From Limosilactobacillus coleohominis 101-4-CHN (GTDB taxonomy: Bacteria; Bacillota; Bacilli; Lactobacillales; Lactobacillaceae): a DNA stretch of 64,000 nt. Within the stretch, counting starts at the first letter, position 1. Each line of letters opens with the position of its first letter. The DNA is taken from NCBI RefSeq assembly GCF_000161935.1, contig NZ_GG698804.1, forward strand, positions 99,400 through 163,399, read 5' to 3'. This document shows positions 39,248-50,936 of the stretch, one piece after another. Below the pieces are notes generated by a model. That model was given only the letters and a program-made list of their open reading frames with translations, made no database searches and was not told where the DNA came from. The translations under genes and the position numbers were made by a program.

Positions 39248-39319
39248 GCGCCCTTAGTGTAATGGATCGCACGTGAGATTCCGGTTCTCGAGATCAGGGT
39301 TCGACTCCCTGGGGGCGCA
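39248..39319 (+). tRNA. tRNA-Arg (CCG)
   Basis: A 72-nt cloverleaf: acceptor GCGCCCT / GGGGCGC, anticodon stem TGAGA / TCTCG around loop TTCCGGT (anticodon CCG), T arm CAGGG TTCGACT CCCTG. It reads CGG codons. CCA is not encoded. Confidence 0.93.
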
Positions 39320-39327
39320 TTAACTTT

Positions 39328-39411
39328 GCCCAAGTGGCGGAATTGGCAGACGCGCAACGTTCAGGTCGTTGTATGGATTTCCATGTACAGGTTCGAATCC
39401 TGCCTTGGGCA
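39328..39411 (+). tRNA. tRNA-Leu (CAG), integration target
   Basis: An 84-nt class II tRNA: acceptor GCCCAAG / CTTGGGC, anticodon stem CAACG / CGTTG around TTCAGGT (anticodon CAG), a long variable arm, and T arm ending GGTTCGAATCC. Its last bases form the left copy of the 19-bp repeat that bounds the integrated element, so the gene stays intact. Confidence 0.95.
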
Positions 39412-39418
39412 TAATTAA
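39400..39418 (+). repeat. left att repeat
   Basis: CTGCCTTGGGCATAATTAA, running from the tRNA-Leu 3' end into the flank. Identical to 49788-49806. Confidence 0.93.
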
Positions 39419-39440
39419 ACCCTTTCGGGGTGTTTCAAAA

Positions 39441-39477
39441 TGTCTTAATCGTTGGTATTAAGGCATTTTTATTTTTG
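39441..39477 (+). terminator. element-supplied terminator for the tRNA operon
   Basis: TGtCTTAAT ... ATTAAGgCA stem followed by TTTTTATTTTT, just inside the element. Confidence 0.8.
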
Positions 39478-39512
39478 CCAAAACACCCTAAAACACCATT
39501 ATTTTTAAATTC

Positions 39513-39534
39513 TGCTACCAAACTGCTACCAAAA
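39513..39534 (+). repeat. left arm-type repeats
   Basis: Two tandem CTGCTACCAAA units (22 bases), identical to 49718-49739 next to the integrase stop. A degenerate pair TTGCTACCAACTGCTACCAA lies at 39600-39620. These look like integrase arm-binding sites. Confidence 0.78.
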
Positions 39535-39706
39535 TTGAACATCAAAAACCGCTTCTAACCAGCGCTTAGGCCACTTTCATTTTGAAGGTGGTTTTATTTT
39601 TGCTACCAACTGCTACCAAAATATGCTCTATACTGTTTATTTGTGTTCTATCTACCTATTATATGGACTTGTTCGCTAAACATTTAACACCACAAAACAA
39701 CACTGA

Positions 39707-40069
39707 TTAATAACCTTGCTCCATGATTGCATCAAACAGGGCGGGATAAACTTGTTTCAATTGGCTACCAAACTCTAATAATGCTTCTCGTTCGTGTACA
39801 TAGTATTGTGACTTGCTAATATTCAGCATTTTAATCACGGTATTCCCTTGCAATTGTTCCAGATACCGATATTCGATTAGCTTTTGATGGTCTGTAGTGC
39901 ATCCGCCAACCGCCTGTTCAATTGCTAGAAAACACTTTAAACATTGCTTACTTTCCGCCCTACGGTTTTTAATTTCACGTTTCGCCCATGCTCCAGACCG
40001 CAAGTAGATACTACGATAATCAATTCTAAAAAAGCCCCGCAAACTGCGGATGATGGTTTTACTATCCAT
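39707..40069 (-). CDS. ArpU-family late transcription regulator
   Basis: About 120 residues from the ATG at 40069 (MDSKTIIRSLRGFFRIDY). The N-terminus resembles ArpU proteins of Gram-positive phages (RFL-x-DY pattern and a YLRSGAW helix). The C-terminal segment QKLIEYRYLEQLQGNTVIKML-type region plus NISKSQYYVHEREALLEFG reads as a sigma-70 region-4-like helix-turn-helix. ArpU proteins switch on late packaging/lysis genes; in a satellite such a protein might respond to or hijack helper transcription. A longer frame from 40180 exists but is less family-like. Confidence 0.75.
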   Translation of the reverse strand: MDSKTIIRSLRGFFRIDYRSIYLRSGAWAKREIKNRRAESKQCLKCFLAIEQAVGGCTTDHQKLIEYRYLEQLQGNTVIKMLNISKSQYYVHEREALLEFGSQLKQVYPALFDAIMEQGY

Positions 40070-40211
40070 GCTGTTACCCCGTATAATATGAATTAGGGTT
40101 TCATTCGGGATATTCTCGGTATTAACAGCGCTAGTCAGTTTGACTTGTGCTGTTTTTATTTTGCTATTATCATATATCAATATGCGGGGGTCGCCCTCGT
40201 GATGGCTTTTT

Positions 40212-40246
40212 GAGTTCTGTATCTAGTGATACAGGGCTCTTTTTTG
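40212..40246 (+). terminator. terminator-like hairpin on the plus strand
   Basis: GAGttCTGTATC tagt GATACAGggCTC followed by TTTTTT, oriented against the ArpU gene. What it terminates is unknown; it may stop antisense transcription from the small-RNA locus side or be the mRNA leader fold. Confidence 0.6.
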
Positions 40247-40247
40247 T

Positions 40248-40281
40248 TATCAGTGCAAAATCTGCAATTATTGCACTGATA
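40248..40281. other. 11-bp inverted repeat
   Basis: TATCAGTGCAA, 12 bases, TTGCACTGATA: a perfect inverted repeat upstream of the ArpU gene. Possible operator or RNA hairpin. Confidence 0.55.
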
Positions 40282-40397
40282 CGATAATCATTGTACCAAT
40301 TCAAAAAACACTATCATTTGTCAGCATTCTACCAACATAATTAAACATCATAAGGGCTTCTGTGTTTGCCGTTAATCAATGAATCTAATTAGTTCCG

Positions 40398-40454
40398 TTT
40401 GTATGCAAGATTGCTATTTGTATGCAAGATTGCTATTTGTACGCAATCATTCTA
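40398..40454. repeat. tandem triplet of a 19-bp unit
   Basis: Two exact copies of TTTGTATGCAAGATTGCTA (40398-40416, 40417-40435) and a third diverged copy (40436-40454), just past the stop of the 118-residue gene. Confidence 0.9.
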
Positions 40455-40463
40455 TTACAGACG

Positions 40464-40820
40464 TTAATTACCAAGTTTCACTAACACGGATGTTATTACC
40501 TTATCATTTCTTAGACCTAGCCCCCCTACCCTAAAATTTTTTAAATTACCGCTTGCGTACAAGCTAACGGCAATGTGTGCGCTCTTGCTGTCAGCAGATA
40601 CGGGGCGGGGTAAATTAAAACGGTAACCATCCACCATTAGATAATTACCGTTGATTATTTTCTGTTCCTGTGCAAAGGCAATTAGTGCGTCTAAATCATC
40701 AATGCTTGCGTATTTGCGGATGAATGTTCTAGCATTTGACCGATACTGATACAGGCGGTTCTTTTCGGTGTGTCGTTTCTCATAGCGTCTAGTAGCGTTC
40801 ATTTGTGCCTGACTAACCAT
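40464..40820 (-). CDS. hypothetical basic protein of the element
   Basis: A 118-residue soluble protein. The basic N-terminus QAQMNATRRYEKRHTEKNR followed by a helix-rich segment (SNARTFIRKYASIDDLDALIAFAQEQK) resembles small ribbon-helix-helix-like proteins often found on lactobacillar plasmids and phages, and the C-terminal half is beta-rich (YLMVDGYRFNLP ... VGGLGLRNDKVITSVLVKLG). A nucleic-acid-binding role is plausible but not shown. AAGAGGG lies 6 bases before the ATG. Family not recognised. Confidence 0.65.
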   Translation of the reverse strand: MVSQAQMNATRRYEKRHTEKNRLYQYRSNARTFIRKYASIDDLDALIAFAQEQKIINGNYLMVDGYRFNLPRPVSADSKSAHIAVSLYASGNLKNFRVGGLGLRNDKVITSVLVKLGN

Positions 40821-40861
40821 GTTTAACCCTCTTTTCGTGTTCTATGATGTTTAAATATATC

Positions 40862-40889
40862 TTGTGTAGTGATAGATTTCTGATATAAT
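40862..40889 (+). promoter_or_regulatory. promoter of the element small RNA
   Basis: TTGTGT (40862-40867), a 16-base spacer and TATAAT (40884-40889). Confidence 0.7.
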
Positions 40890-40895
40890 TATATA

Positions 40896-40980
40896 TGTAA
40901 AAGGCGTTAGGTGATGTCAGCACCTAACGCCCGATAGTCTACTCAGTTAGTGAGAAACGTCCTACTTAGGGCGTTTTTTT
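40896..40980 (+). ncRNA. candidate ~85-nt antisense small RNA
   Basis: Starts about 7 bases after a TATAAT. It has a perfect 11-bp 5' hairpin (GGCGTTAGGTG atgtcag CACCTAACGCC, 40903-40931), a short CTCAgttagTGAG hairpin, and ends in a terminator AACGtCC tactta GGgCGTT with seven T (40956-40980). It opposes the 3' end and 3' UTR of the 35-residue peptide gene on the other strand. Confidence 0.68.
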
Positions 40981-41069
40981 ATTACCATAAACACAACATA
41001 AACTACCGTAATTAATACAGTAGCAAACAGCTTACCGTTAGAAATAGTAAGCGTGATTGTTATGTTCAC
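40962..41069 (-). CDS. 35-residue hydrophobic peptide, candidate type I toxin
   Basis: GTG start at 41069, TAG stop at 40964-40962. Begins MNITITLTISNGKLF, then a membrane helix (ATVLITVVYVVFMVI) and the basic tail KKRPK. GGAGAG lies 8 bases upstream. On this strand the perfect hairpin at 40931-40903 followed by TTTT would end its mRNA, so the mRNA 3' part is wholly covered by the opposite small RNA. The design (tiny membrane peptide plus 3'-overlapping antisense RNA) is that of txpA/bsrG/fst-class type I toxin systems. No family match is claimed. Confidence 0.65.
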   Translation of the reverse strand: MNITITLTISNGKLFATVLITVVYVVFMVIKKRPK

Positions 41070-41492
41070 AATAACAGCTCTCCACTAATTGAGTAGAAAC
41101 AAAAACTAAACATATTACGTCGCGCCCCTGTCTACTCGGATTGATGTAGACGCTGACGCAGTTTAATGTTTTGTAGACTATCTTGGTTCTTGGTAGGCTC
41201 ATGACTTCCTACCGCCAACCTGATTACATTTTATAGCTATCATACATATAACACAACGCAACAATTAAGCCGTTAGTCAGCAATTGACCAACGGCTTTTT
41301 AACTACGATTGTTTAGAAATGTCAACATTTTTCAACGGAAAAAATACCAGCTTAAAAAGCCCCTATTATTGCTCTAAATTGCGCTTCATTCATCCGCTTA
41401 ATGCTGATGAATCAACAATCATAGGTCACCAGACAAACACAATCATATTTAACTACTAATAGAAAAACAAATACATGTTTTGCGAGGTTGTT
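41070..41492. other. leader and intergenic region with hairpins, no gene seen
   Basis: Contains the leader of the 35-residue peptide gene, with a GTCTAC / GTAGAC hairpin around 41130-41151 and a copy of the small-RNA motif (41080-41096, minus strand CTACTCAATTAGTGGAG) that includes the ribosome site. It also holds GGTAGG / CCTACC at about 41190-41210 and a plus-strand terminator AGCCGTTagTCA ... TGAccAACGGCT with T run at 41267-41300. Confidence 0.5.
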
Positions 41493-41597
41493 TTATCGGA
41501 ACCTATGCACCATGTAAACCACCGCAACAATCAATAATAAAGCGCCGACTTCGTACGGTAAGAACTGACCATCAAAGAATAACAGCATTACTAACAT
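41493..41597 (-). CDS. 34-residue membrane peptide
   Basis: ATG at 41597, TAA at 41495-41493. MLVMLLFFDGQFLPYEVGAL then LLIVAVVYMVHRFR: one membrane helix and a basic end. A GGGGGG run precedes and may serve the second ATG (M4). Function unknown; such single-helix peptides are common in phage and satellite DNA. Confidence 0.5.
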   Translation of the reverse strand: MLVMLLFFDGQFLPYEVGALLLIVAVVYMVHRFR

Positions 41598-41734
41598 CCC
41601 CCCCATTTTTAACAACAATTAACAACATTCTTTTAACTATAAACATCCCCGATAATGTGCAATTTTGTGCACGTTATTTTAGCCAGATCACTGTTATATC
41701 AGCATTTCAGAATTGGACAAGGTACGGAACAGTT

Positions 41735-42118
41735 TTATTTGTTCTTAGTTTGTGACCTAATACCGATGTTCTTATAGGCGGTAGTTACTTTATTTTGATA
41801 GTAACCAGCATAAAAACGATGATGTTTTTGGTAGACAAAACCGAGTAGTTGCATGTTCTTTTTGAATTGACGGTTGCCTAATGGGGTAATCCCTTGCTGG
41901 TCACAATATTCTAAATAGTATTTATAGACCGTTGCGCATGGTGCATATAACCGCCGATTCTTAACCACGTTCGGGCTATAAACAAACTTAACTACATTCT
42001 TATCCGCTTGATCACGGTTTCTAATTCTGAAATAATTATCTTTCTTGTGTCGGCTTGCATCGAACCATTGCGATAAAGTCCGATGGTTCATTACATACCG
42101 CCCTTTATACCAGCCCAT
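41735..42118 (-). CDS. stand-alone primase C-terminal-domain-like protein
   Basis: A 127-residue basic protein. The segment VYKYYLEYCDQQGITPLGNR, QFKKNMQLLGF and HRFYAGY matches the pattern of the winged-helix tail of phage/plasmid D5/P4-type primase-helicases (Y..Y..WC...G..PLS...F...L...G). The helicase motifs themselves are absent here and nearby, so it is either a trimmed remnant or a separate DNA-binding subunit. GGAGGG lies 6 bases before the ATG. Confidence 0.6.
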   Translation of the reverse strand: MGWYKGRYVMNHRTLSQWFDASRHKKDNYFRIRNRDQADKNVVKFVYSPNVVKNRRLYAPCATVYKYYLEYCDQQGITPLGNRQFKKNMQLLGFVYQKHHRFYAGYYQNKVTTAYKNIGIRSQTKNK

Positions 42119-42188
42119 GCGATCCCTCCAAACTTATTTAAACTATTAATTAAAGAGTTAGGTCAACTAACCAGCCTAGTTCTTTTAA

Positions 42189-42278
42189 CTATCTTTTGAA
42201 CTGCGAAAAAATGAATTGAATAAGTACCCCTAGCAGCAAACCAAAAACTAAATTATTAACCATGTTTGTACTTATCAT
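42189..42278 (-). CDS. 29-residue membrane peptide
   Basis: ATG at 42278, TAG at 42191-42189. MISTNMVNNLVFGLLLGVLI then QFIFSQFKR: one helix with a basic tail. GAGG lies 5 bases upstream. Function unknown. Confidence 0.5.
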   Translation of the reverse strand: MISTNMVNNLVFGLLLGVLIQFIFSQFKR

Positions 42279-42406
42279 TTCCACCTCACAAAATACTTCA
42301 CCTTTTCCGCCTAATGTTCCTTTAATTACAAATGATCAACACTGATACAACGCTCTTTTCATCACATCAGCATTTGTCGGTGTAGCCATGCTTCAAGCGG
42401 ATGGAC

Positions 42407-42568
42407 TTAGTGTTTATATTCCACCAATACATAACCCATTACCGCCAAAACTACAATGATCAGCATTGCTATGTTGGTACGCCAATAGGCTTGGTCTAGT
42501 GTGATATGAAAGGCGTTAGCAATTAAGCGGTAAAACATCCAATCGTCGAAACTATTTAGAATTGTCAT
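42407..42568 (-). CDS. 53-residue single-helix membrane protein
   Basis: ATG at 42568, TAA at 42409-42407, with GAGAGG 7 bases upstream. An amphipathic N-terminus (MTILNSFDDWMFYRLIANAF) is followed by a helix NIAMLIIVVLAVMGYVLV and the end EYKH. Good ribosome site and composition support a real gene. Family not recognised. Confidence 0.6.
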   Translation of the reverse strand: MTILNSFDDWMFYRLIANAFHITLDQAYWRTNIAMLIIVVLAVMGYVLVEYKH

Positions 42569-42921
42569 TTTATTACCTCTCTTTTTTTAGGGTGTATGAA
42601 CTGCCTGAATTCTTTTTTAGGGTGTCTGAATTGTCATCTTTTTTTATGATGCGCCCTTACCGCCCTTATTAACTGCTGACAAACTTAAACATGATTACAA
42701 TTTAACTACGCCCGTTGCTGACAACAAGATAAGGGGGCTTTTTATTATGTTCTAATTCTCATTTTAAGGCTCTCTGACCAATTCTAGTGGTTACACGATT
42801 TTATATTAGTTCCCTGATATCCGCTACATAGCAGGGCAAAATTTGAGAATTAGCAAGGTAAAAGCGTAACAGTGTTTTCTTTTAGTCATGATTGTTAGGC
42901 ATCCGACCTTGTGTGAAACAC

Positions 42922-42993
42922 CTCTGTTACTATCTCCGCTACTATCTCTGTTACTACCTTTAACACTATCTCTGTTACTAAATCTGTTACTGC
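42922..42993. repeat. six tandem 12-bp units
   Basis: Units of CTCTGTTACTAT type with exact 12-base period: CTCTGTTACTAT, CTCCGCTACTAT, CTCTGTTACTAC, CTTTAACACTAT, CTCTGTTACTAA, ATCTGTTACTGC. Confidence 0.9.
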
Positions 42994-43144
42994 TACTACT
43001 TACCGTTGACAGTTGTAGTAATGTGATGCAACTATGCATCAGCTATATCCAGCTATCTAAACAGCTATATCGTGCATTTATCACTTCGGTCAACTCAATT
43101 AGGACAACTTGTCCGATTGCATAACATCAAGGGTTACGGATGTC

Positions 43145-43312
43145 AGTAGTGATAACTGTGTGCTTATTAGTGGTGTTATCAGTGTACTTAACAGTGTAGT
43201 TAATGCTGTATATGCCTCTGTACCTAACGATGGTACTAAACAGTACCAACATAGTTTACAAGGTGGTTTACATGTTAGTTGTCATGTTGGTTTACAAGAT
43301 AGTGTACATAGA
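43145..43312. repeat. fourteen-unit degenerate 12-bp-period array
   Basis: Read in 12-base steps the sequence aligns as AGTGTACTTAAC-like units (for example AGTGTACTTAAC, AGTGTAGTTAAT, TCTGTACCTAAC, AGTTTACAAGGT, GGTTTACATGTT, GGTTTACAAGAT, AGTGTACATAGA) with no length change across 168 bases. Confidence 0.75.
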
Positions 43313-43334
43313 CAAATACTGTCAGATAAGCAAT

Positions 43335-43366
43335 AAGGGGTGTTGATTGATATTTCAACGCCCCCT
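43335..43366. other. stem-loop in the origin-like region
   Basis: AAGGGGtGTTGA ttgatat TTCAACgCCCCCTT. No T run on either side is obvious, so a structural or replication role is as likely as termination. Confidence 0.55.
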
Positions 43367-43527
43367 TACTCCAGCATCTTCACCGATAACGGATTCCCCA
43401 TGAACGGCTTTTCAGTCAACGGCTCTTCAGTCGTACTAGTCAGAGTACGACCTTATTTCTCGTTGTGACCATCAGGGAACAACCTTATTTTTTGTCCAGC
43501 GACCTTATTTAAATACTTATTATTGGT

Positions 43528-43614
43528 TGTACTAAATGTCACCCCCCAGTTGTACTATTTGTCACCCCCTGCTGTACAAAATGACACCCCCTGTTGTACT
43601 ATTTGTCACCCTTA
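43528..43614. repeat. four 22-bp iterons
   Basis: TGTAC starts at 43528, 43551, 43573 and 43595 (spacings 23, 22, 22). Consensus TGTACTAWWTGTCACCCCCT; the third copy is TGTACAAAATGACACCCCCT. They lie about 40 bases past the stop of the putative initiator gene, which is the usual iteron-initiator pairing of theta-type replicons and satellites. Confidence 0.9.
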
Positions 43615-43653
43615 ACTTGAAAATTAAATACCGTATTTAAAATAATAAATACC

Positions 43654-44274
43654 TTAGTAAATTTTATTTACTTCGTTAAAAAATTCGGGAACTTCTTTTT
43701 CTGATTGATAATTAATGTTAAGTTCTAATGATCTTTGATGATTCTCACTTGGTAAGTAGAATACATAACTTTTTTGGTACAATTGTTTTAGATTCCGTTT
43801 GATGGAACGTTCACTCAGATTCAGTATCAAAGCCATTTTTTGGTTAGACAAGGTGCTTTGACGTTTCCCATTCTTGAAAGCATCATCATATATTAGACTA
43901 CAGATTATAGCTTCACGGTAGTTCAAAATCCCCCGTTGAACATCATTCAATATCTGATAAGGAACTGATAAATATGGTTTCTTGTTCCTTGCCAACGGGA
44001 AAATTTGCCAATTGGTTTTACCATCAGCATGATTATATTCAACAGCGACCCACCCTAAATTAGATAACTCTTGCACTTGTCTGCTAATGTAATCAACACC
44101 GCAATTCTGATACTCCGCAAGGGTTCGTCTACTTGCGTTAATTGTTTTGAATTTACGATTAAGCGCCAATAATTTTGCATACAAGATAGCTGATGATGGT
44201 TTACTACTTTGAACTAACGCCAACGGCAATTTGACTATGGGCGTTTTTAATTTTATTCCTTCTCCGTTACTCAT
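43654..44274 (-). CDS. putative replication initiation protein of the element
   Basis: A 206-residue basic protein. The N-terminal part (VKLPLALVQSSKPSSAILYAKLLALN ... SRRTLAEYQNCGVDYISRQV) looks like a winged helix, and the C-terminal part has a second helix-turn-helix-like block (LSNQKMALILNLSERSIKRN). Two such domains plus iterons just downstream fit a replication initiator or phage replisome-organiser. I did not find helicase or primase motifs. Codon use is more A+T-rich than in the flanking chromosome. Confidence 0.65.
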   Translation of the reverse strand: MSNGEGIKLKTPIVKLPLALVQSSKPSSAILYAKLLALNRKFKTINASRRTLAEYQNCGVDYISRQVQELSNLGWVAVEYNHADGKTNWQIFPLARNKKPYLSVPYQILNDVQRGILNYREAIICSLIYDDAFKNGKRQSTLSNQKMALILNLSERSIKRNLKQLYQKSYVFYLPSENHQRSLELNINYQSEKEVPEFFNEVNKIY

Positions 44275-44397
44275 AATTTATTCGCCTTATCAATTAACTA
44301 GAGCTCTAAATTCTGATAATATGAATAAAGCGAGCCAACTAAAAGCCCGCTTTATGAAAATATTTTTTCAAGTCGTTCCTGCTGTTTGATGTGGTAG

Positions 44398-44775
44398 TTA
44401 GTCAGCATGAACGGCTTTTTTTGTGTCCTTGAATTGATTGTAGTAATTCTGTTTCAAACGTTCCGCCCTCATCATCATCGAAAGTCCAGAGGTTCGGATG
44501 TTAGTGTAAGTACGCTGCAACTCCTCTTCGGTGCTGATCAAGTAATAGCCGTTATCCATTCCAATAGGGACACCCTCATTGGTCAAACGGGCAATAATAT
44601 TACTAACGGCTCTTACATCAACCCCTAAGGCATCCGCAACCCTGCTTCGTGATATGGGGTTCTCTGAACCATAAGGTAGTAGCCTTAATACCTTACGTTC
44701 GATATTGGTTTCACCTTTGACTGCTTGCTGGTCAATCGTCGGCAAATTGAATAATGCTAATTGCTCCTCACTCAT
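44398..44775 (-). CDS. winged-helix DNA-binding protein
   Basis: A 125-residue protein with a clear helix-turn-helix at about residues 26-70 (RKVLRLLPYGSENPISRSRV, ADALGVDVRAVSNIIARLTNEG) and wing GYYL, and a basic C-terminal helix (MMMRAERLKQNYYNQFKDTKK). It is placed before the initiator gene, so a replication or regulatory role is plausible. Its ATG overlaps the stop of the upstream 68-residue gene by four bases. Confidence 0.65.
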   Translation of the reverse strand: MSEEQLALFNLPTIDQQAVKGETNIERKVLRLLPYGSENPISRSRVADALGVDVRAVSNIIARLTNEGVPIGMDNGYYLISTEEELQRTYTNIRTSGLSMMMRAERLKQNYYNQFKDTKKAVHAD

Positions 44776-44978
44776 TCGTTGACCCCCTTAATTTCAATTC
44801 TCCAGTGCTTTTTAAACCACCTTAGTATTTCTACAACATGAACTGCTAAAACAGCGTACGGGCTTAAATACGCCCCGATAATCACGTTTAAAATGATCCA
44901 GAGTAGCAAAGCACCATTCTTTGTCAGTTCAATATCCATACATAAATTTAAATCATTCCGTATTTGTGTTCTCATCAT
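44772..44978 (-). CDS. small membrane protein of the element
   Basis: About 68 residues from the ATG at 44978 (MRTQIRNDLNLCMDIELTKN). One or two hydrophobic stretches (GALLLWIILNVIIGAYLSPYA and AVLAVHVVEILRWF) and a basic tail. A GGGTGG site sits 5 bases upstream, directly next to the first copy of the 32-bp repeat. Coupled to the winged-helix gene. Function unknown. Confidence 0.6.
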   Translation of the reverse strand: MMRTQIRNDLNLCMDIELTKNGALLLWIILNVIIGAYLSPYAVLAVHVVEILRWFKKHWRIEIKGVNE

Positions 44979-44985
44979 GTCCACC

Positions 44986-45017
44986 CATTCAAATACATAA
45001 CACTGCGCTGGTTAGCT
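44986..45017 (+). repeat. 32-bp exact direct repeat, copy A
   Basis: Begins CATTCAAATACATAACACTG and ends GCGCTGGTTAGCT. Identical and in the same orientation to 48571-48602. Here it lies between the stop of the Xis-like gene and the ribosome site of the small membrane gene. Confidence 0.95.
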
Positions 45018-45024
45018 ATGGTTA

Positions 45025-45291
45025 TTAATGACTATGTTTCTGACTGCGTGACTTGACCCATTGCTCTAAATCAGACTTGGTAAAACGGTAGCTACCACCG
45101 ATCACGGCAACGGGAAAGTCATCGTATTCTTTGATCCATTTATCAAGGGTTGCCCGTCCACATCCAAGAAACTTTGATGCTTGCTGTTTGTTAAGTACAG
45201 CAGGGAACGGATCAACTGGTTTATAAGTTTTCATGCGCTCCGTCAATGCGTCTTGTAAAGCGCTGTCGGGAATGGTAAAAGTAAATTCCAT
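45025..45291 (-). CDS. excisionase/AlpA-like HTH protein
   Basis: An 88-residue protein whose C-terminal half (VLNKQQASKFLGCGRATLDK ... VAVIGGSYRFTKSDLEQWVK) is the MerR-like winged helix of excisionase and AlpA proteins: a helix-turn-helix followed by a wing and the closing helix with W. The N-terminal 30 residues are unassigned. In satellites such proteins drive excision or early transcription. A second, shorter one lies at 46697. Confidence 0.78.
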   Translation of the reverse strand: MEFTFTIPDSALQDALTERMKTYKPVDPFPAVLNKQQASKFLGCGRATLDKWIKEYDDFPVAVIGGSYRFTKSDLEQWVKSRSQKHSH

Positions 45292-45313
45292 CTTCGATTG
45301 CCTCGCTTTCTAA

Positions 45314-45535
45314 CTAGCCCCATCTTGTAAAGAACTCATCTAGTGAAACCGTGATAAGTGGATGCGCTTTGGGCTCCAGTAGCTTGTTAATGATCTTGAT
45401 TGCTAAATCTATCGTGTGTTGATCGTATCTATTCAGAAACGGGACTTTTGCCCCTCCCGATTGAAAAACATGTAGTACATGCTTTGCTTCGTTACGATCA
45501 CTTTCAGTTAGTGCAATATCTTTTACATCAATCAC
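45314..45535 (-). CDS. hypothetical protein of the element
   Basis: About 73 residues from a GTG at 45535, with AAGGCGGTG 7 bases upstream and 13 bases after the previous stop. Soluble, mixed helix and strand (DVKDIALTESDRNEAKHVLH ... IKIINKLLEPKAHPLITVSL). Not recognised. It lies in a run of small same-strand genes typical of satellite early operons. Confidence 0.55.
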   Translation of the reverse strand: MIDVKDIALTESDRNEAKHVLHVFQSGGAKVPFLNRYDQHTIDLAIKIINKLLEPKAHPLITVSLDEFFTRWG

Positions 45536-45548
45536 GATTAACACCGCC

Positions 45549-45890
45549 TTATTTTTGAGAACCAACAATTACAAAAGCATCTTTGGTGCGTCTTTCATTA
45601 AGGGCAATTTGTAAACCATCATCCCATACCAGAACATGCGAATTGGCAATTGATGGATCAACTTGTGCAAATAAATACCCTTCTCCGGCGTAACTGATCA
45701 TTTCATTACCCGCAAGCGGTAGGATGCTGTTTCCGTCTACTTGACGATCAGCAAAGATTTTATTTTGACCGTCTTTGTTTTCCAGCAGTTTTGTTAATTC
45801 CAGCCCCTTTTTAGTAGCTGTATAAACTGCCTTTTCACAATAAACTTGGTCGCCTTGTGCTAATACAACAATATTTTGCGTGTTTTCCAT
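45549..45890 (-). CDS. hypothetical protein of the element
   Basis: A 113-residue soluble, probably beta-rich protein (NIVVLAQGDQVYCEKAVYTA ... GYLFAQVDPSIANSHVLVW). No membrane helix or signal peptide, no motif I can name. Accessory genes of phage satellites at this place sometimes act on helper phages, but nothing here shows that. Confidence 0.55.
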   Translation of the reverse strand: MENTQNIVVLAQGDQVYCEKAVYTATKKGLELTKLLENKDGQNKIFADRQVDGNSILPLAGNEMISYAGEGYLFAQVDPSIANSHVLVWDDGLQIALNERRTKDAFVIVGSQK

Positions 45891-45903
45891 GATTAAATAC
45901 CTC

Positions 45904-46203
45904 CTAGTCTGCTAATGCTTGTTTGAATTCGTCTGTGGTAAGTGAAGCCTTATCAACCAGCCGTGCGCCGTTGGCTCCATCAACCAATAAGTAATGGTTC
46001 CCGTAACCGTCTGTCACGGTGTCATAAGGCTTTAATGATACTGACTGACCATCTTTCTTAATCACTTCAGCAACTAACGGCATTTTGTCGGTTGTATCTT
46101 CCGTGTGATCAAACATCAAAGCACCAAAGTCATCATCGTTACGGTAAAAGGTGTTTTCAATTCGTAAAGTGTCGTCAAAATCTACACAAACTTTTTTCAT
46201 CAT
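45904..46203 (-). CDS. hypothetical protein of the element
   Basis: A 99-residue acidic protein (KKVCVDFDDTLRIENTFYRN ... YGNHYLLVDGANGARLVDKA). GAAGG lies upstream of two adjacent ATGs (46203, 46200). VDFDDT looks like HAD motif I, but the remaining HAD motifs are missing, so I do not call it a phosphatase. Function unknown. Confidence 0.55.
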   Translation of the reverse strand: MMKKVCVDFDDTLRIENTFYRNDDDFGALMFDHTEDTTDKMPLVAEVIKKDGQSVSLKPYDTVTDGYGNHYLLVDGANGARLVDKASLTTDEFKQALAD

Positions 46204-46230
46204 TCATTACCTTCAAAATTCTAGTATCTG

Positions 46231-46256
46231 GCATCCGCTCAACGGCGGATTTTTTT
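46231..46256. other. leader hairpin upstream of the 99-residue gene
   Basis: ATCCGC tcaacg GCGGAT followed by seven T on the plus strand. For the minus-strand operon it would be a hairpin shortly before the ribosome site. The same arrangement recurs at 46674-46698. Confidence 0.5.
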
Positions 46257-46350
46257 GTACGTGCTATCACGAACCCGTTTTTGAAACATTACATGTTGAC
46301 GTGGTTAATTTATCGAATTAACTAGGTTGCGTCCGTTTTTGCATAGCTAG

Positions 46351-46656
46351 TTATGTGTTACTCAAAAACCAGGGCTTTTTATGCAAATCTTGCAAATGTT
46401 TTTTCTGCAAATCGGTTAGCGGAACTTTTTCGCGGATATTAACCGTTCCGTTATCAATATCACCCTCTAACATGATTAACTGGTCTGCTACGTTGTAAGC
46501 CTTACGCTCGGGGTTCGATACATACTTTTCAAACTTGCGGGCGTGTTTCGGCTCATCCGTGTAAATGTGCCACGTTTCTGTTTCACGGTCATAAGTAATA
46601 ATCGTTTCCCGCTCATTGCGGGGCGCTGTTACTACTTGCCGTTGAATTTCTGTCAT
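46351..46656 (-). CDS. hypothetical phage/satellite early protein
   Basis: A 101-residue protein (NERETIITYDRETETWHIYT, DEPKHARKFEKYV) that resembles small proteins of unknown function common near the lysogeny region of lactobacillar phages. AAAGGAGG lies 9 bases before the ATG, an excellent ribosome site. No domain recognised. Confidence 0.6.
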   Translation of the reverse strand: MTEIQRQVVTAPRNERETIITYDRETETWHIYTDEPKHARKFEKYVSNPERKAYNVADQLIMLEGDIDNGTVNIREKVPLTDLQKKHLQDLHKKPWFLSNT

Positions 46657-46673
46657 TTGCTATTACCTCCTTT

Positions 46674-46698
46674 GCATCCACTCCAACGGATGCTTTTT
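46674..46698. other. leader hairpin upstream of the 101-residue gene
   Basis: GCATCC actccaac GGATGC with a T run on the plus strand, directly before AAAGGAGG on the minus strand. Confidence 0.5.
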
Positions 46699-46882
46699 AT
46701 TTGTCCTGAGTTGCAACAACAGTATGATCTTGCATGAACTTATCAATAGCTGACTTGCTAATGCGTTTTGACTTGCCAACTTTAACGGTTGGCAGTCCCT
46801 GCTTAATGTAAGTTCGCAAAGTATCTTGGGTTTTAAATCCCATATACTGCATAGCCTCTTTATAGCTTAGATATTCAGTCAT
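46697..46882 (-). CDS. AlpA/excisionase-like HTH protein, first gene of the leftward operon
   Basis: About 61 residues from the ATG at 46882 (MTEYLSYKEAMQYMGFKTQD): YLSYKEAMQYMGF ... LRTYIKQGLPTVKVGKSKRI and SKSAIDKFMQ form the helix-turn-helix and wing of the AlpA/Xis family. It is divergent from the repressor, exactly where PICIs carry alpA or xis, and probably activates the element or directs excision. Confidence 0.75.
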   Translation of the reverse strand: MTEYLSYKEAMQYMGFKTQDTLRTYIKQGLPTVKVGKSKRISKSAIDKFMQDHTVVATQDK

Positions 46883-46998
46883 AATTACGCCTTCTTTCTC
46901 CCGTTTCGGTAATAATGTTATTCTCCCATTACGGGAATGCCAACTATTAAATACCAAAATGGGATAATTCGTGTTAAAGTTTATACGGGTGATTTAGT
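46883..46998. promoter_or_regulatory. divergent operator region between repressor and AlpA-like gene
   Basis: Repeated half sites of CCCGT/CCCAT type: CTCCCGTTTCGG (about 46906), TTCTCCCATTACGGGAA (about 46921-46937, near-palindrome), AAAATGGGATAAT (about 46957) and TACGGGTGAT (about 46984). They are the probable binding sites of the tandem-HTH repressor. Confidence 0.55.
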
Positions 46999-47820
46999 AT
47001 GAATACAAACAAAAAGCCCCGCAATAGAATTGCGGAACTTAGAAAAGAAAAAGGGTTAACACTACAACAGGTTGCTGATGCCGTTAGCGTTGGTAATAAC
47101 ACTATCAGCCGTTATGAAACTGGAAAACGTGAGCCAAAACTAGAAACATGGATGAAACTTGCTAACGTTTTTGATGTTCCTGTGTCTTACATTATGGGAA
47201 CAGATAATATTAACGCTATCAGAGAAACAAGAATATTACACAATACCAGTTTAGGCTCATTAGCTGAAATGACAGGGATTTCAGAAAAAAGGCTCAAATC
47301 CATTGAACAGTTTGAAACAGTTCCAACAGTGCAGGAATGGTTTTTAATAGCCGAAGTACTTTGTGTTCCTGTATCTGAAATACAGGGAACCAGAAAAGGA
47401 ATAAACAATTTTAATTTACCTAATGAAAATTTCATTAAATTAGTCAATGAATTTGACGCAACAAATGAAAAAGGTGAAGTACCAAATATTAGCGGTTCCG
47501 AAGCCCATTTTATTGGTACAAGTATAGATGCATATAAACTGCTATTATCGAATTTAATTTCATTAGATCAAAAATATAAAACTGATGTTTATAAAAATTT
47601 TCTAAATACCGTTACCACTTTAACCACTCTTTTTGCAATAATTCCCGATAAAGGTAAAAACGAAACAGAAAGAAGAAAAATATATAAACTGCTAACTGAC
47701 CAACTTTCAGCATTAATACATAATATTGCTAAAACAAAAAGCGGAAAATTATTATTGGATATTAATGAAGAACCATTTAAAACGGATGATAAAGCCAATA
47801 ACTCTAGTAGTAAAAAGTAA
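46999..47820 (+). CDS. XRE-family master repressor with two HTH domains
   Basis: A 273-residue protein. The first XRE helix-turn-helix covers about residues 10-66 (IAELRKEKGLTLQQVADAVS ... TISRYETGKREP). A second, degenerate HTH spans about 74-130 (RILHNTSLGSLAEMTGISEK ... LKSIEQF). The C-terminal half is helical with no LexA-type Ser-Lys protease motif, so self-cleavage is not expected. Lack of a cleavage domain is typical of satellite (Stl-like) repressors relieved by a helper-phage protein. Confidence 0.82.
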   Translation: MNTNKKPRNRIAELRKEKGLTLQQVADAVSVGNNTISRYETGKREPKLETWMKLANVFDVPVSYIMGTDNINAIRETRILHNTSLGSLAEMTGISEKRLKSIEQFETVPTVQEWFLIAEVLCVPVSEIQGTRKGINNFNLPNENFIKLVNEFDATNEKGEVPNISGSEAHFIGTSIDAYKLLLSNLISLDQKYKTDVYKNFLNTVTTLTTLFAIIPDKGKNETERRKIYKLLTDQLSALIHNIAKTKSGKLLLDINEEPFKTDDKANNSSSKK

Positions 47821-47872
47821 TACCCATTACGTCCAAGCGTGATTGACGTTAAAAGCTATGGGAGGTTCATTT

Positions 47873-47989
47873 ATGAAAAAAGATGGTTTAGGTTTTGAAA
47901 GATTGTTGATCTTTCTAGCTGGTTTGAATTTGATTTTGCGTCTAGTCCTCTATGTTCAAGAAAAGCGTGAAGCCAATGAAAAAGATTAG
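47873..47989 (+). CDS. 38-residue membrane peptide next to the repressor
   Basis: ATG at 47873, TAG at 47987-47989, GGGAGG 8 bases upstream. MKKDGLGFERLLIFLAGLNL then ILRLVLYVQEKREANEKD: one membrane helix with a charged tail. It overlaps the start of the lipoprotein gene by 14 bases in another frame, which suggests translational coupling. Confidence 0.6.
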   Translation: MKKDGLGFERLLIFLAGLNLILRLVLYVQEKREANEKD

Positions 47990-48473
47990 TTTGATTTGCG
48001 CCGTTGCCCTTGCTGGTCTATCCTTAACCGCTTGCGGTAGCAACTCCAACAAGAAAACAAGTTCTAGTAGTAAAGTGTCTAGTTCAAAGGTGGTTAAGCA
48101 CCACAAGAAAGCCAAGCACTCAAAGAAAAAGGCTAGTTCTAGCAGTAATTCATCCGCTGCGAGTGCGTCTAATCAGCAGAACCAACAGCAAAATAACAGC
48201 GGTGATCAAGCCGATCCATTTGATGCAAGTACATGGGATAAACCATATAAAGGCTATCCCAGTTTTAACGCCTATTTGCACGATCATCCCGATACTCCTA
48301 ACATTCAATCACAAACAGCTCAAATTCAACATGATGAAAATGTGAGAAAAGGTATCGAAGACGCAAACGGTAATGAAACTCAAAACTTTAAAAATTGGGT
48401 TTCTGCTCGTGACAATGCTTGGGACAATGGGAACGATAATTTCCCAGACTATGATCAAAATCGCCAATGGTAA
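47976..48473 (+). CDS. secreted lipoprotein between repressor and integrase
   Basis: About 165 residues from the ATG at 47976. MKKISLICAVALAGLSLTAC is a lipoprotein signal with lipobox LTAC, so Cys is lipidated and the rest lies outside the membrane. A Lys/Ser-rich linker (about residues 21-60) leads to a Gln/Asn/Asp-rich domain with FDASTWDKPYKGYPSFNAYL. The position between integrase and repressor matches the phage TP-J34 gene ltp, whose lipoprotein blocks DNA entry of related phages. Sequence homology to Ltp is not claimed. Confidence 0.75.
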   Translation: MKKISLICAVALAGLSLTACGSNSNKKTSSSSKVSSSKVVKHHKKAKHSKKKASSSSNSSAASASNQQNQQQNNSGDQADPFDASTWDKPYKGYPSFNAYLHDHPDTPNIQSQTAQIQHDENVRKGIEDANGNETQNFKNWVSARDNAWDNGNDNFPDYDQNRQW

Positions 48474-48570
48474 TTAGTTGCTTTCCCCTTGTATGACGTT
48501 TTAACCATGTTTTGATTAATTACCCATCTATCCTTTTAAAAGCTCTCATGGGTCAATTCTGACCCCATAT

Positions 48571-48602
48571 CATTCAAATACATAACACTGCGCTGGTTAG
48601 CT
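48571..48602 (+). repeat. 32-bp exact direct repeat, copy B
   Basis: Same 32 bases as 44986-45017, here in the integrase upstream region, 26 bases before its start codon and just after a small GGGTCA/TGACCC hairpin. Confidence 0.95.
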
Positions 48603-48627
48603 GTGCGAAAAAAAGGAATGATAGAAA

Positions 48628-49713
48628 ATGAGTTATACGAAGAAAGTTAGTAAAGGATATTATGGTTACGCTACCTACTACGACAAGCACGGCAAGCGTC
48701 ACGTTAAAAGTGCGGGGCTTTTCAAGCTCAAACGACAAGCCCAACAAGCGGGCAATGATTTAGAGAAAGAGCTTGACCAGCGCAACATGGATTTACAAGA
48801 TATTACCTTGTTTGCTTACTATGAACGCTGGTTCAAGCTCTACAAACAACCAAATATTACGGATGTTACTAAGAACCGCTATAAAGTCATTGGTAAGGCA
48901 ATTCAAGATTATTTTGACGTTACTAAGCTAGTTAATATTCGGCGTTCTGACTATCAAGGCTTTATTAACTGGTATGGTGCTGATCATGCTAGGGATAGTG
49001 TTACTAAGCTCAATGGTGCATTAAGAAGTTGTGTCAGTTATGCAATTGACGATGACATTATTACCAAGGACTTCACCCATAACGTGCAAATCGTTTATGA
49101 CCGCTCCAGAAAAGTTAATGTGGAATACTTAACCAATGCTGAATTAGTGAGGCTCAAAGATGCGGTAGTACAGCACCTAAACCCATTAAGTACCAGCCGT
49201 TACATGATCTTGACGGCAATTTACACGGGGATGCGTAAAGCTGAGGTGCAAGCCTTAACATGGAAAGATATTGATTTCCTCCATTCCACCATTACCATCA
49301 ACAAGTCATGGGATGAAATAAAAAAAGCCTTTAAACCTACCAAGACTTCAACCAGTAATCGAACAATTAAAGTTAATCGTGAATTACTGAAACGTCTTGC
49401 AGATTTAAAGGCGAACGGTTCAACGCTGGTCTTTATGAATGGTTTAGGAACAGTTCCAACATCAACCGCTTTAAACAAATGTCTACACCGTATTATGAAC
49501 CATGTCGGTATCAAAAAGCAAAATTTCACGTTCTACTCACTACGGCATGTTCATGTTGCCTATTTAATCGGGCAAGGTGTCGATGTTTATGCAATTAGTA
49601 AGCGTCTAGGACACTCCAATATTACTACTACGTTGCGGGTCTACTCTTATTTGATTGATGAGTACAAGGCAAAGAATGATACTTTGATTATTAGCAAATT
49701 AGCTGACCTCTGA
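48628..49713 (+). CDS. int: tyrosine-recombinase integrase
   Basis: A 361-residue phage-type integrase. It has an N-terminal AP2-like arm-binding domain (KGYYGYATYYDKHGKRHVKS), a SAM-like core-binding domain (about 60-165) and the catalytic domain with Arg in YTGMRKAEVQALTW, Lys in the TSNRTIKVNR hairpin, the box II sequence FYSLRHVHVAYL, LGHSNITTT and the nucleophile Tyr in LRVYSYL. The first His of the usual HxxR box is Tyr here (YSLR). It lies directly inside the right repeat and reads toward it. Confidence 0.93.
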   Translation: MSYTKKVSKGYYGYATYYDKHGKRHVKSAGLFKLKRQAQQAGNDLEKELDQRNMDLQDITLFAYYERWFKLYKQPNITDVTKNRYKVIGKAIQDYFDVTKLVNIRRSDYQGFINWYGADHARDSVTKLNGALRSCVSYAIDDDIITKDFTHNVQIVYDRSRKVNVEYLTNAELVRLKDAVVQHLNPLSTSRYMILTAIYTGMRKAEVQALTWKDIDFLHSTITINKSWDEIKKAFKPTKTSTSNRTIKVNRELLKRLADLKANGSTLVFMNGLGTVPTSTALNKCLHRIMNHVGIKKQNFTFYSLRHVHVAYLIGQGVDVYAISKRLGHSNITTTLRVYSYLIDEYKAKNDTLIISKLADL

Positions 49714-49717
49714 TTTT

Positions 49718-49739
49718 CTGCTACCAAACTGCTACCAAA
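49718..49739 (+). repeat. right arm-type repeats
   Basis: Two tandem CTGCTACCAAA units, identical to 39513-39534, four bases after the integrase stop. Confidence 0.8.
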
Positions 49740-49787
49740 TCAGAGTAAAACATTGATATATCAACGTTTAGGACACGGTTTTTGTGT

Positions 49788-49806
49788 CTGCCTTGGGCAT
49801 AATTAA
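49788..49806 (+). repeat. right att repeat
   Basis: CTGCCTTGGGCATAATTAA, the 19-bp copy of the tRNA-Leu end. Confidence 0.93.
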
Positions 49807-49814
49807 TTACTTTC

Positions 49815-49841
49815 AACCGTTGATTACTCAACGGTTTTTTT
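49815..49841 (+). terminator. original tRNA-operon terminator, displaced by the element
   Basis: AACCGTTGA ttac TCAACGGTT followed by a T run, immediately outside the right repeat. Confidence 0.85.
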
Positions 49842-49850
49842 ATACATAAT

Positions 49851-49881
49851 AAAAGGCATCCTAATCAACAGGATGCCTTTT
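49851..49881 (-). terminator. terminator of the 213-residue protein gene
   Basis: AAAAGGCATCC ... GGATGCCTTTT stem, symmetric, directly after the stop codon. Confidence 0.85.
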
Positions 49882-49883
49882 CG

Positions 49884-50525
49884 TTACTTCAAATTTAAAT
49901 GAAGATCGTATTGTTTATTTGATACATCGTCATCACTTTTACCAAAAGCTTCGAATTTAAAACGCAATTTCTTAATATCATTAATATTCTTAACGTGATT
50001 AAATACCACTACAACATCACCAGTTTTAGATATTCCATTATCAATATCGCCATCAAAGTCTTGGTCGCCCATCATCGCATTTGCTTGTAAACCATTATTA
50101 GTCGAAACCGTTCCTTGAGTTGGGTAAATACTAATATCCTGGTTGGCTTTGATTGTCATATTAATTAGCATCACGCAATTGCCAGATTTACCATCAAGGC
50201 CGATTCTTTGATAATCTTTAGCCAATTTATAAATTGTCACACTATTAATCTTAATATTAGCATGATCCCAAGAATTAACGTCCCGGTTTAAATGATAAGT
50301 CTTTTGACCCGTATATTGGTATGAATCATACGTCAGTTTAATCTTCCCCTTAGCTTTTGCAGCGTGATCATCATGGTGATCAACCACTAGTCCCGTGCTT
50401 TCTCCTGTCGCTTGCAACCTATGAATTCCATGATAAGTTGCTACATCAGCAAGTACGATTAGAACCGCCAACACTGCCACAATTGAAACCCAGTAAACCT
50501 TATTATGGTACCAAACTCGCTTCAT
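49884..50525 (-). CDS. membrane-anchored extracytoplasmic protein, DUF5067/DUF4352-like
   Basis: A 213-residue protein with one N-terminal helix (VYWVSIVAVLAVLIVLADVA) and an exported beta-rich domain. The strand pattern INSVTIYKLAKDYQ ... CVMLINMTIKANQDISIYPT ... NGLQANAM resembles the immunoglobulin-like DUF4352/DUF5067 domains of lactobacillar surface proteins. It follows the zinc-ribbon gene by 18 bases, so the two are likely one operon. Function unknown. Confidence 0.7.
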   Translation of the reverse strand: MKRVWYHNKVYWVSIVAVLAVLIVLADVATYHGIHRLQATGESTGLVVDHHDDHAAKAKGKIKLTYDSYQYTGQKTYHLNRDVNSWDHANIKINSVTIYKLAKDYQRIGLDGKSGNCVMLINMTIKANQDISIYPTQGTVSTNNGLQANAMMGDQDFDGDIDNGISKTGDVVVVFNHVKNINDIKKLRFKFEAFGKSDDDVSNKQYDLHLNLK

Positions 50526-50543
50526 AACTAAATCCTCCCAAAT

Positions 50544-50936
50544 TTAACTCGCTAGAATTACAATAATCATTAACGATACGAAAAATACTAAATTAGCTAC
50601 AACGCTGATCAAGGCACCAATTCCCGCAGAATTTGCATTCATCGGTCGTTCTTTTCTCCACACTAAAAATAAAATCAACCCTACTAACGGGATGAAGAAG
50701 CCAAGTAAGGCCCAGCCAAAACTTCCTGAATCTACAGAATGGGAACGAACATTGTTTTCAACATTCGGTACGGTAGATTCAATTTTCTCCGCGGATGGTT
50801 CTGGCACTTGTTCTGAAGCTTTCAGTTGACTACTAGAATGATCATTTTCTAATGCTCCAGGAACTGGTTGACCACAATGTGGGCAAACTAGTAAGTGTTC
50901 CGCCATTGACTGGCCACAATATTGACATTTTTTCAT
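50544..50936 (-). CDS. zinc-ribbon membrane protein
   Basis: A 130-residue protein. An N-terminal zinc ribbon (CQYCGQSM ... CPHCGQPV), an acidic disordered linker (about 25-75) and two hydrophobic helices (about 73-92 and 103-130). The pattern is common in Firmicute membrane-stress or scaffold proteins with no known enzyme activity. First gene of a likely pair with the exported protein downstream. Confidence 0.75.
   Translation of the reverse strand: MKKCQYCGQSMAEHLLVCPHCGQPVPGALENDHSSSQLKASEQVPEPSAEKIESTVPNVENNVRSHSVDSGSFGWALLGFFIPLVGLILFLVWRKERPMNANSAGIGALISVVANLVFFVSLMIIVILAS

Follow-up and report, generated by a model that had tools for sequence, protein, structure and literature searches.

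A probable cos-type phage satellite in a tRNA-Leu gene of Limosilactobacillus coleohominis

What kind of mobile element occupies the 3' end of a tRNA-Leu(CAG) gene in Limosilactobacillus coleohominis 101-4-CHN, and by which route does it reach new cells? We analysed a window of 64,000 nucleotides (bases 99400-163399 of contig 10; host genome, 1.73 Mb), in which an initial annotation had read one interval as a satellite resembling the phage-inducible chromosomal islands (PICIs). That reading was right in kind. We recovered the attachment (att) repeats and the divergent gene arms, found no virion genes, and located in addition a phage-type packaging site (cos), a feature absent from the earlier account. 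The island is very probably a cos-type PICI-like satellite of Limosilactobacillus that would be packaged by the terminase of a helper phage. As no virus-particle genes were found but a phage packaging site is present, packing into helper-phage particles appears the most likely way of spread.

A packaging site shared with phages

In a distant blastn search of plasmid records, the interval 40521-40610 had matches in a phage-like L. plantarum record, immediately 5' of its P27-family terS gene, in a circular L. reuteri record of 10,428 bp and in an L. fermentum plasmid. Against phage records, the DNA of 39420-47000 gave nothing in a distant search; another search gave a 40-base match to phage JNU_P5. 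Read on the minus strand, the cos region (40521-40610) consists of a C-rich block (GGGGCGGGG on the plus strand, 40602-40610), AAGAG, the predicted cosN, an A/T block and a G-run (CCCCCC on the plus strand, from 40521).

We drew a search pattern from the plasmid-record matches, the distal G-run lying outside it. The window contained the pattern once, 100 shuffles did not contain it, and IMG/VR yielded 92 stretches with it. A P27-type terS frame adjoined the motif in 89 of these 92 stretches; 76 of those 89 frames opened 61-85 bp past the motif. The three stretches without such a frame had just 79, 86 and 143 bp of sequence on the terS side. The aligned layout is C-rich block, variable spacer, AAGAG, C[AG]CACACATT, A/T-rich block and G-run, the last being kept in 91 of the 92 phage stretches and in 13 of 14 island or plasmid copies (it is split by one base in the L. 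coleohominis genome G018).

In phage DT1, the linear record begins with CCACCACAAGGTG and closes with ...CCCCCGCCCCC...GGAGAG, and these ends are the DT1 cos as given in PMC13376191. The record ends line up with the motif. Therefore, this architecture marks the genome ends in a phage, and the predicted 13-nt cosN of the window, CGCACACATTGCC, is placed by alignment at 40569-40581 on the minus strand. The same cosN letters were present in 14 of the 92 IMG/VR stretches, as well as in prophages of L. fastidiosus and L. oris. The block GGGGCGGGG was dropped as a candidate cut site; the DT1 ends place the cut after AAGAG. Phage CHPC974 was rejected as a second physical-end reference, its record beginning elsewhere.

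A 118-aa open reading frame (ORF; 40464-40820, minus strand) reads across the cos region, and its N-terminal 52 residues are phrog_2277-like (1.7e-11). We rejected phrog_2277 as a phage packaging gene: it was found in one of 56 IMG/VR stretches with at least 2 kb on that side, besides one stretch with less than 2 kb there and two prophages. A crude HNH motif near cos was seen in 37 of 79 IMG/VR stretches with enough sequence, so an HNH neighbour of this cos is shown for a part of the stretches.

Seventeen island ORFs were scanned against Pfam/PHROG-type families. No ORF gave a convincing match to virion, lysis, terminase or conjugation families, in agreement with the lack of virion and conjugation genes reported in the initial annotation. 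Rows of these types were all weak (E of at least 0.0025) and fell on a low-complexity lipoprotein, helix-turn-helix (HTH) proteins, a 99-aa ORF and the integrase. Mobilisation and partition families were likewise not found among the island ORFs in the family scans. As in cos-type PICIs, a helper-type cos is present by sequence and no terS was found in the island.

Ends, gene arms and replication module

The tRNA-Leu(CAG) gene (39327-39412, plus strand) was called by both ARAGORN and Rfam; Rfam reported two tRNAs in the window and nothing else. Its 3' end is the attachment site. The attL core CTGCCTTGGGCATAATTAA (39400-39418, plus strand) is repeated exactly as the attR core at 49788-49806 (plus strand), so the terminal repeats described earlier are confirmed. 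The two 19-bp copies are 10,388 bp apart, which gives an island of 10.4 kb. CTGCCTTGGGCATAATTAA is the sole word of at least 13 nt common to 39300-39520 and 49650-49900, and the repeat can be extended to 27 nt at 89% identity. A candidate integrase arm-type repeat, TTCTGCTACCAAACTGCTACCAAA, is found near the left end (39510-39533) with an identical copy near the right end (49716-49739) and a third, 71% copy at 39597-39620; its role is inferred.

A search with the left flank gave a match in 49 of 50 genus genomes. We inspected three of these (G009, G006 and G039), and none has an island after tRNA-Leu, which supplies the empty-site comparison that the initial annotation had proposed. In G009 the tRNA is followed by ~190 bp and then by the right flank of the window, the flanks being 96-97% identical. 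Because ~50 bp of the island's left end remain within those ~190 bp, G009 may once have carried such an island. G006 and G039 also lack the next 1.3 kb to the right of the island. Two genes lie in this neighbourhood (49884-50936), one for a 213-aa phrog_3727-like protein and one for a 130-aa zinc-ribbon-like protein; G006 and G039 gave no match to the pair behind the tRNA, and the stretch is present in G009. As to prophage use of the site, the exact 25-nt attL word, a narrow probe, was found in no viral_contigs stretch.

In Gram-positive PICIs the integrase and the master repressor are transcribed opposite an alpA/xis-rep arm (PMC6092414). The ORFs and family scans revealed the same divergent layout in the island, as the initial annotation had proposed. 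On the plus strand, the tyrosine integrase (48628-49713; PF00589 1.6e-23, phrog_1) ends 74 bp short of the right repeat; it had 1185 matches in phage records, every one below 60% identity. The Stl-like master repressor candidate (46999-47820, plus strand) has two HTH_3 domains and no peptidase family at E<=1. The initial annotation had called it non-cleavable and in need of a helper-phage inducer; the missing peptidase domain is consistent with that proposal, and the sequence goes no further. Between the two genes is a putative lipoprotein of low complexity (47952-48473, plus strand; weak phrog_33215), for which no defence family was found. A defence scan of 10 window-island ORFs gave one weak row (HEC-01B, 0.00088).

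The opposite arm, on the minus strand, begins with a first AlpA-like HTH_17 protein (46697-46957) and continues with four small early-operon ORFs of 84, 113, 99 and 101 aa (45314-46656; the 101-aa one is phrog_1709), a second AlpA-like HTH_17 protein (45025-45291) that is a candidate excisionase or activator, a 70-aa protein of no family (44772-44984; 96% identical in G018) and a winged-helix protein of phrog_2113 common to the relatives (44398-44775). A 35-nt sequence occurs in two copies at 97% identity, after the second AlpA-like gene (44986-45020) and just before the integrase gene (48571-48605), and in both same places in G018; it is perhaps a regulator or excisionase site.

Gram-positive PICIs have their own replicon with iterons (PMC6092414), and an initiator and four iterons are present here by sequence. 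The 206-aa initiator (43654-44274, minus strand) matched HTH_36 as well as PHROG helicase-loader and initiator families. Its AlphaFold model (pLDDT 77) has two winged helices; the best viral fold match was a 'Replication initiator protein' (E 3.4e-8, TM 0.61, rmsd 8.1), and the PDB fold matches were weak, one of them being a Rep-DNA complex (TM 0.42). Relatives were found in three of 50 genus and three of 396 family genomes, an identical trio, and none in viral_contigs, genome_contigs or plasmid records. The four iterons (43526-43613, plus strand), ~22 bp apart, are the probable origin; a similar array is present in G018. Two 12-bp repeat arrays (42920-42991 and 43252-43311) occupy the non-coding stretch beside them.

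Further along the minus strand are a 127-aa winged-helix, D5-primase-tail-like protein (41735-42118; PF03288 8.8e-5; Pox_D5-like, 23.3 bits against a cut-off of 21.4) and a 157-aa ArpU/RinA-like late regulator (39707-40180; phrog_248 1.4e-11; DUF1492 at the cut-off, 21.6 bits against 21.5). The tail-like protein has homologues in the circular L. reuteri record (L018), G036 and L208. For neither protein did tblastn of phage records give a match. The predicted fold of the tail-like protein was unusable (pLDDT 48).

Relatives, a circular form and matching prophages

Among 50 genus genomes the cos motif was present in 10, beside terS in G002, G011, G027 and G030 and without it in G000, G013, G018, G031, G036 and G041. 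Among 396 family genomes it was present in 15, spanning 5 of 40 genera, and a reversed control pattern was found in none. In genome_contigs we observed the motif in 15 stretches, with terS beside it in eight plus a ninth (L134, longer fetch L126) and not seen in six. The terS-less islands with this cos belong to several Limosilactobacillus species and to Weissella confusa.

The same gene block was found elsewhere, as the initial annotation had suggested looking for: the L. coleohominis genome G018 has a related island at the same tRNA, spread over three contigs whose pieces are 79-92% identical to the window, and no structural gene was recognised in it. The ratios of nonsynonymous to synonymous substitution (dN/dS) between window and G018 were 0.06 for the integrase, 0.08 for the second AlpA-like protein, 0.10 for the tail-like protein, 0.22 for the initiator and 0.23-0.39 for four small genes (arpU, whose G018 piece is out of frame, was left out of this set). 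By these ratios, the island genes are under purifying selection.

The replication modules of the relatives vary: an iteron initiator in the window and G018, a DnaD-like loader in G036 (with a homologue in L018) and a primase-helicase in G041. In seven islands an RNA gene lies 0.3-1.2 kb from cos, namely tRNA-Leu in the window, a tRNA called Glu in G013, G036 and L. urinaemulieris, and transfer-messenger RNA in G031, G077 and Weissella G423; the G041 stretch has none, the nearest one seen in G411 is 6.8 kb off, and the G018 sequence is interrupted there by a contig break. Restriction genes of the MmeI-like type IIG kind were seen in G018, where they occupy two frames, in G036, where the N-terminal piece has a frame of its own, and in L. 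urinaemulieris, where the locus is cut; the G423 island carries a type III restriction pair. The repeat intervals are 10.4 kb in the window, 10.4 and 13.3 kb in relatives, and 7.3 kb (G041, 12-nt repeat) and 25.5 kb (G423, 19-bp repeats) in others. The G423 island has two cos (13066 and 27729 in L193+L194 when joined), 14.7 kb apart with the type III pair between them, and is perhaps two islands in tandem. IMG/VR contig L212 has an additional integrase next to a related island block, which suggests tandem islands as well. A small island-like block was also observed at ~2185-7893 of L007 (G027, L. oris), with an integrase, a repressor, an AlpA-like gene, a 26%-identical initiator and other genes; that contig has no cos motif.

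The circular L. reuteri record (NZ_CP104439, strain AM_LB1, 10,428 bp) was deposited as a plasmid, with no replicon listed. It carries integrase, repressor, AlpA-like, loader-like, tail-like and phrog_2277 genes together with cos. The att core is single in this circle and double in the G036 island (9649 and 22986); the single core is flanked by sequence matching the right end of G036 on one side and its left end on the other. By sequence, the record is an island circle with a rejoined attP, as expected of excision. It is either a free multi-copy form or an assembly from induced cells. Among plasmid records, only the circle itself covers at least 80% of its length.

These relatives bear on one alternative, namely that the island is a decayed prophage, an inert remnant that lost the DNA between cos and one att site and retained the integrase, the early genes, ArpU and cos. 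In its favour, phages such as Sha1 and DT1 show the same gene order (integrase, repressor, early genes, replication, ArpU, cos), with ArpU/RinA-like and HNH genes ahead of cos; the island has no HNH gene, the ArpU frame of G018 is disrupted, and longer contigs contain integrase relatives. Yet the layout recurs with other att sites and three kinds of replication module, the nearest relative (G018) is likewise without recognised structural genes, the genes are under purifying selection, and a circular relative has a rejoined attP. Moreover, the cos of the window sits between the phrog_2277/tail-like genes and arpU; as arpU is on the terS side, a simple deletion in the phage order would not give this arrangement. 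We consider such decay improbable.

Three genomes were seen to hold both an island and a motif-bearing prophage: L. urinaemulieris c9Ua_26_M (L147/L143), W. confusa VTT E-062653 (L140/L141; G411) and W. confusa G423. In all three, the cosN of the island is that of the prophage (CGCACACATTGCA, CACACACATTGCT and CACACACATTACT), and it differs between genomes; the sample is small, and two of the three are from one species. In the G423 prophage (L195, 15589-16691), the ORF list alone places insertion-sequence-like frames between two large-terminase-like pieces, and since these frames split the apparent large terminase gene, this resident helper may be defective.

The matching cosN also bears on whether the island is an integrating plasmid, kept by its iteron initiator, that acquired cos by accident and does not normally spread through phage packaging. 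The iterons and the two-winged-helix initiator resemble those of plasmids and phages, the L. reuteri circle was deposited as a plasmid, and plasmid-like records share the cos. Against this stand the retention of cos in islands of differing replication genes, the identity of cosN with that of the resident prophage in three of three genomes, the failure to find mobilisation or partition families in the window island, and the divergent repressor/AlpA layout, which is as in PICIs. We therefore give this explanation very little credence. Among plasmid and plasmid-like records, the motif lies at 1635 of L020 (L. fermentum pike38) and at 6385 of L201 (Lactobacillus sp. UCMA15818 contig), the 38-nt motif letters of UCMA15818 being the same as in the L. 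reuteri circle; in L202 (the 4.3-kb L. pentosus p4), cosN and the A/T block lie at ~1944-1997 and the GGGGCGGGG block is missing. It is possible that pike38, UCMA15818 and p4 are natural phage-packaged plasmids.

Several observations weigh against a cos-type satellite. Plasmids carry this cos too, and hence cos alone is no proof of a satellite. The host genome has no prophage bearing the exact motif, and its one P27-type terS lies in a motif-free region; G013, G018, G031, G036 and G041 hold the motif once only, in the island, and no co-resident exact-motif helper was seen in them. Integrase relatives (62%) occur in 23-45 kb IMG/VR contigs, which have the AlpA-like gene in common with the island and, in the parts seen, not the initiator and tail-like genes. 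In G018 the tail-like gene has one stop and the arpU piece is out of frame. The G018 cos contig stops 256 bp from the motif on the terS side, leaving a gap, so the absence of terS there rests on homology.

Comparison with known satellites and implications

Taken as a cos-type PICI-like satellite, the island would have the following cycle. A helper-phage protein would lift the two-HTH repressor, and the integrase, with AlpA-like help, would excise a circle that the initiator would replicate from the iterons into concatemers. The terminase of an HNH/P27-terS-type helper would then cut the island cos and pack the DNA into helper particles, and the injected DNA would re-integrate in the tRNA of a new cell. 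Other satellites are packaged as several copies per full head (PMC6092414, PMC10803314). Since no capsid-size gene was recognised, the simplest, speculative arrangement is that about four copies of the 10.4-kb unit would fill a ~40-kb head.

Gram-positive PICIs are described as typically ~15 kb long, with an att site never occupied by prophages and PICI-exclusive genes, and as showing phage-dependent induction, interference with the helper and transfer in phage-like particles (PMC6092414). The lactococcal bIL310 (14,957 bp), called a 'putative phage-inducible chromosomal island' (PMC9930590), resembles the island in its integrase/repressor arm divergent from an early arm, in weak homology of the integrase, the repressor and a phrog_2113-like gene, and in the same cos architecture, placed at its integrase-distal end; its antirepressor has weak homology to that of the L. 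reuteri circle. In contrast, its record annotates a terminase (orf26) and a helicase, its att site is different, and it has no relative of the island initiator or tail-like protein at E<=1e-3. The cos-type Staphylococcus aureus pathogenicity islands SaPIbov4 and SaPIbov5 are PICIs with the helper's cos instead of their own terS (PMC5052747). The likeness is one of description, and SaPIbov5 has ccm for small capsids (PMC5052747), whereas none was recognised in the island. The Streptococcus satellite Javan212 has the exact DT1 cosN within the same flanking architecture, and of the reference proteins, integrase and repressor alone matched; it and StCI-301 of S. thermophilus belong to other hosts. 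The phage-inducible chromosomal minimalist island (PICMI) of Vibrio has a small gene set without capsid remodelling, and its concatemers in full heads would suit the island size; it differs in having no identified cos, random concatemer ends, and an unrelated host and target (PMC10803314).

Satellites in lactobacilli are not new as such, because lactobacilli are already named as hosts of capsid-forming PICIs (PMC10803314). For cos satellites of Limosilactobacillus, we found no description in the titles and abstract starts of the open-licence literature. A wider picture is conceivable, and we put it forward tentatively, as one that may well prove wrong. A guild of terS-less cos satellites might extend across the Lactobacillaceae, with counterparts in Lactococcus and Streptococcus. 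Its members would keep the 13-nt cosN matched to the local helper while swapping replication modules, att sites and restriction cargo; concatemer packaging without capsid remodelling would set their sizes near head fractions (10.4 kb x4 or 13.3 kb x3, ~40-42 kb), and the same cos would have spread to plasmids. The head-fraction sizes rest on three islands, and the fit of 7.3 kb (G041) and 25.5 kb (G423) is not obvious.

Lactobacilli, bacteria of industry and of the gut, are rich in prophages, and we found little literature on their satellites. The cos signature would allow satellites to be found through a short DNA pattern instead of gene content, and the choice of helper would be predictable by matching the 13-nt cosN. 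The island/prophage pairs of L. urinaemulieris and W. confusa offer ready systems in which to relate cohesive-end identity to helper specificity, and copies per head to island size. Finally, restriction genes are present in several of the relatives, so phage defence may travel with these satellites.

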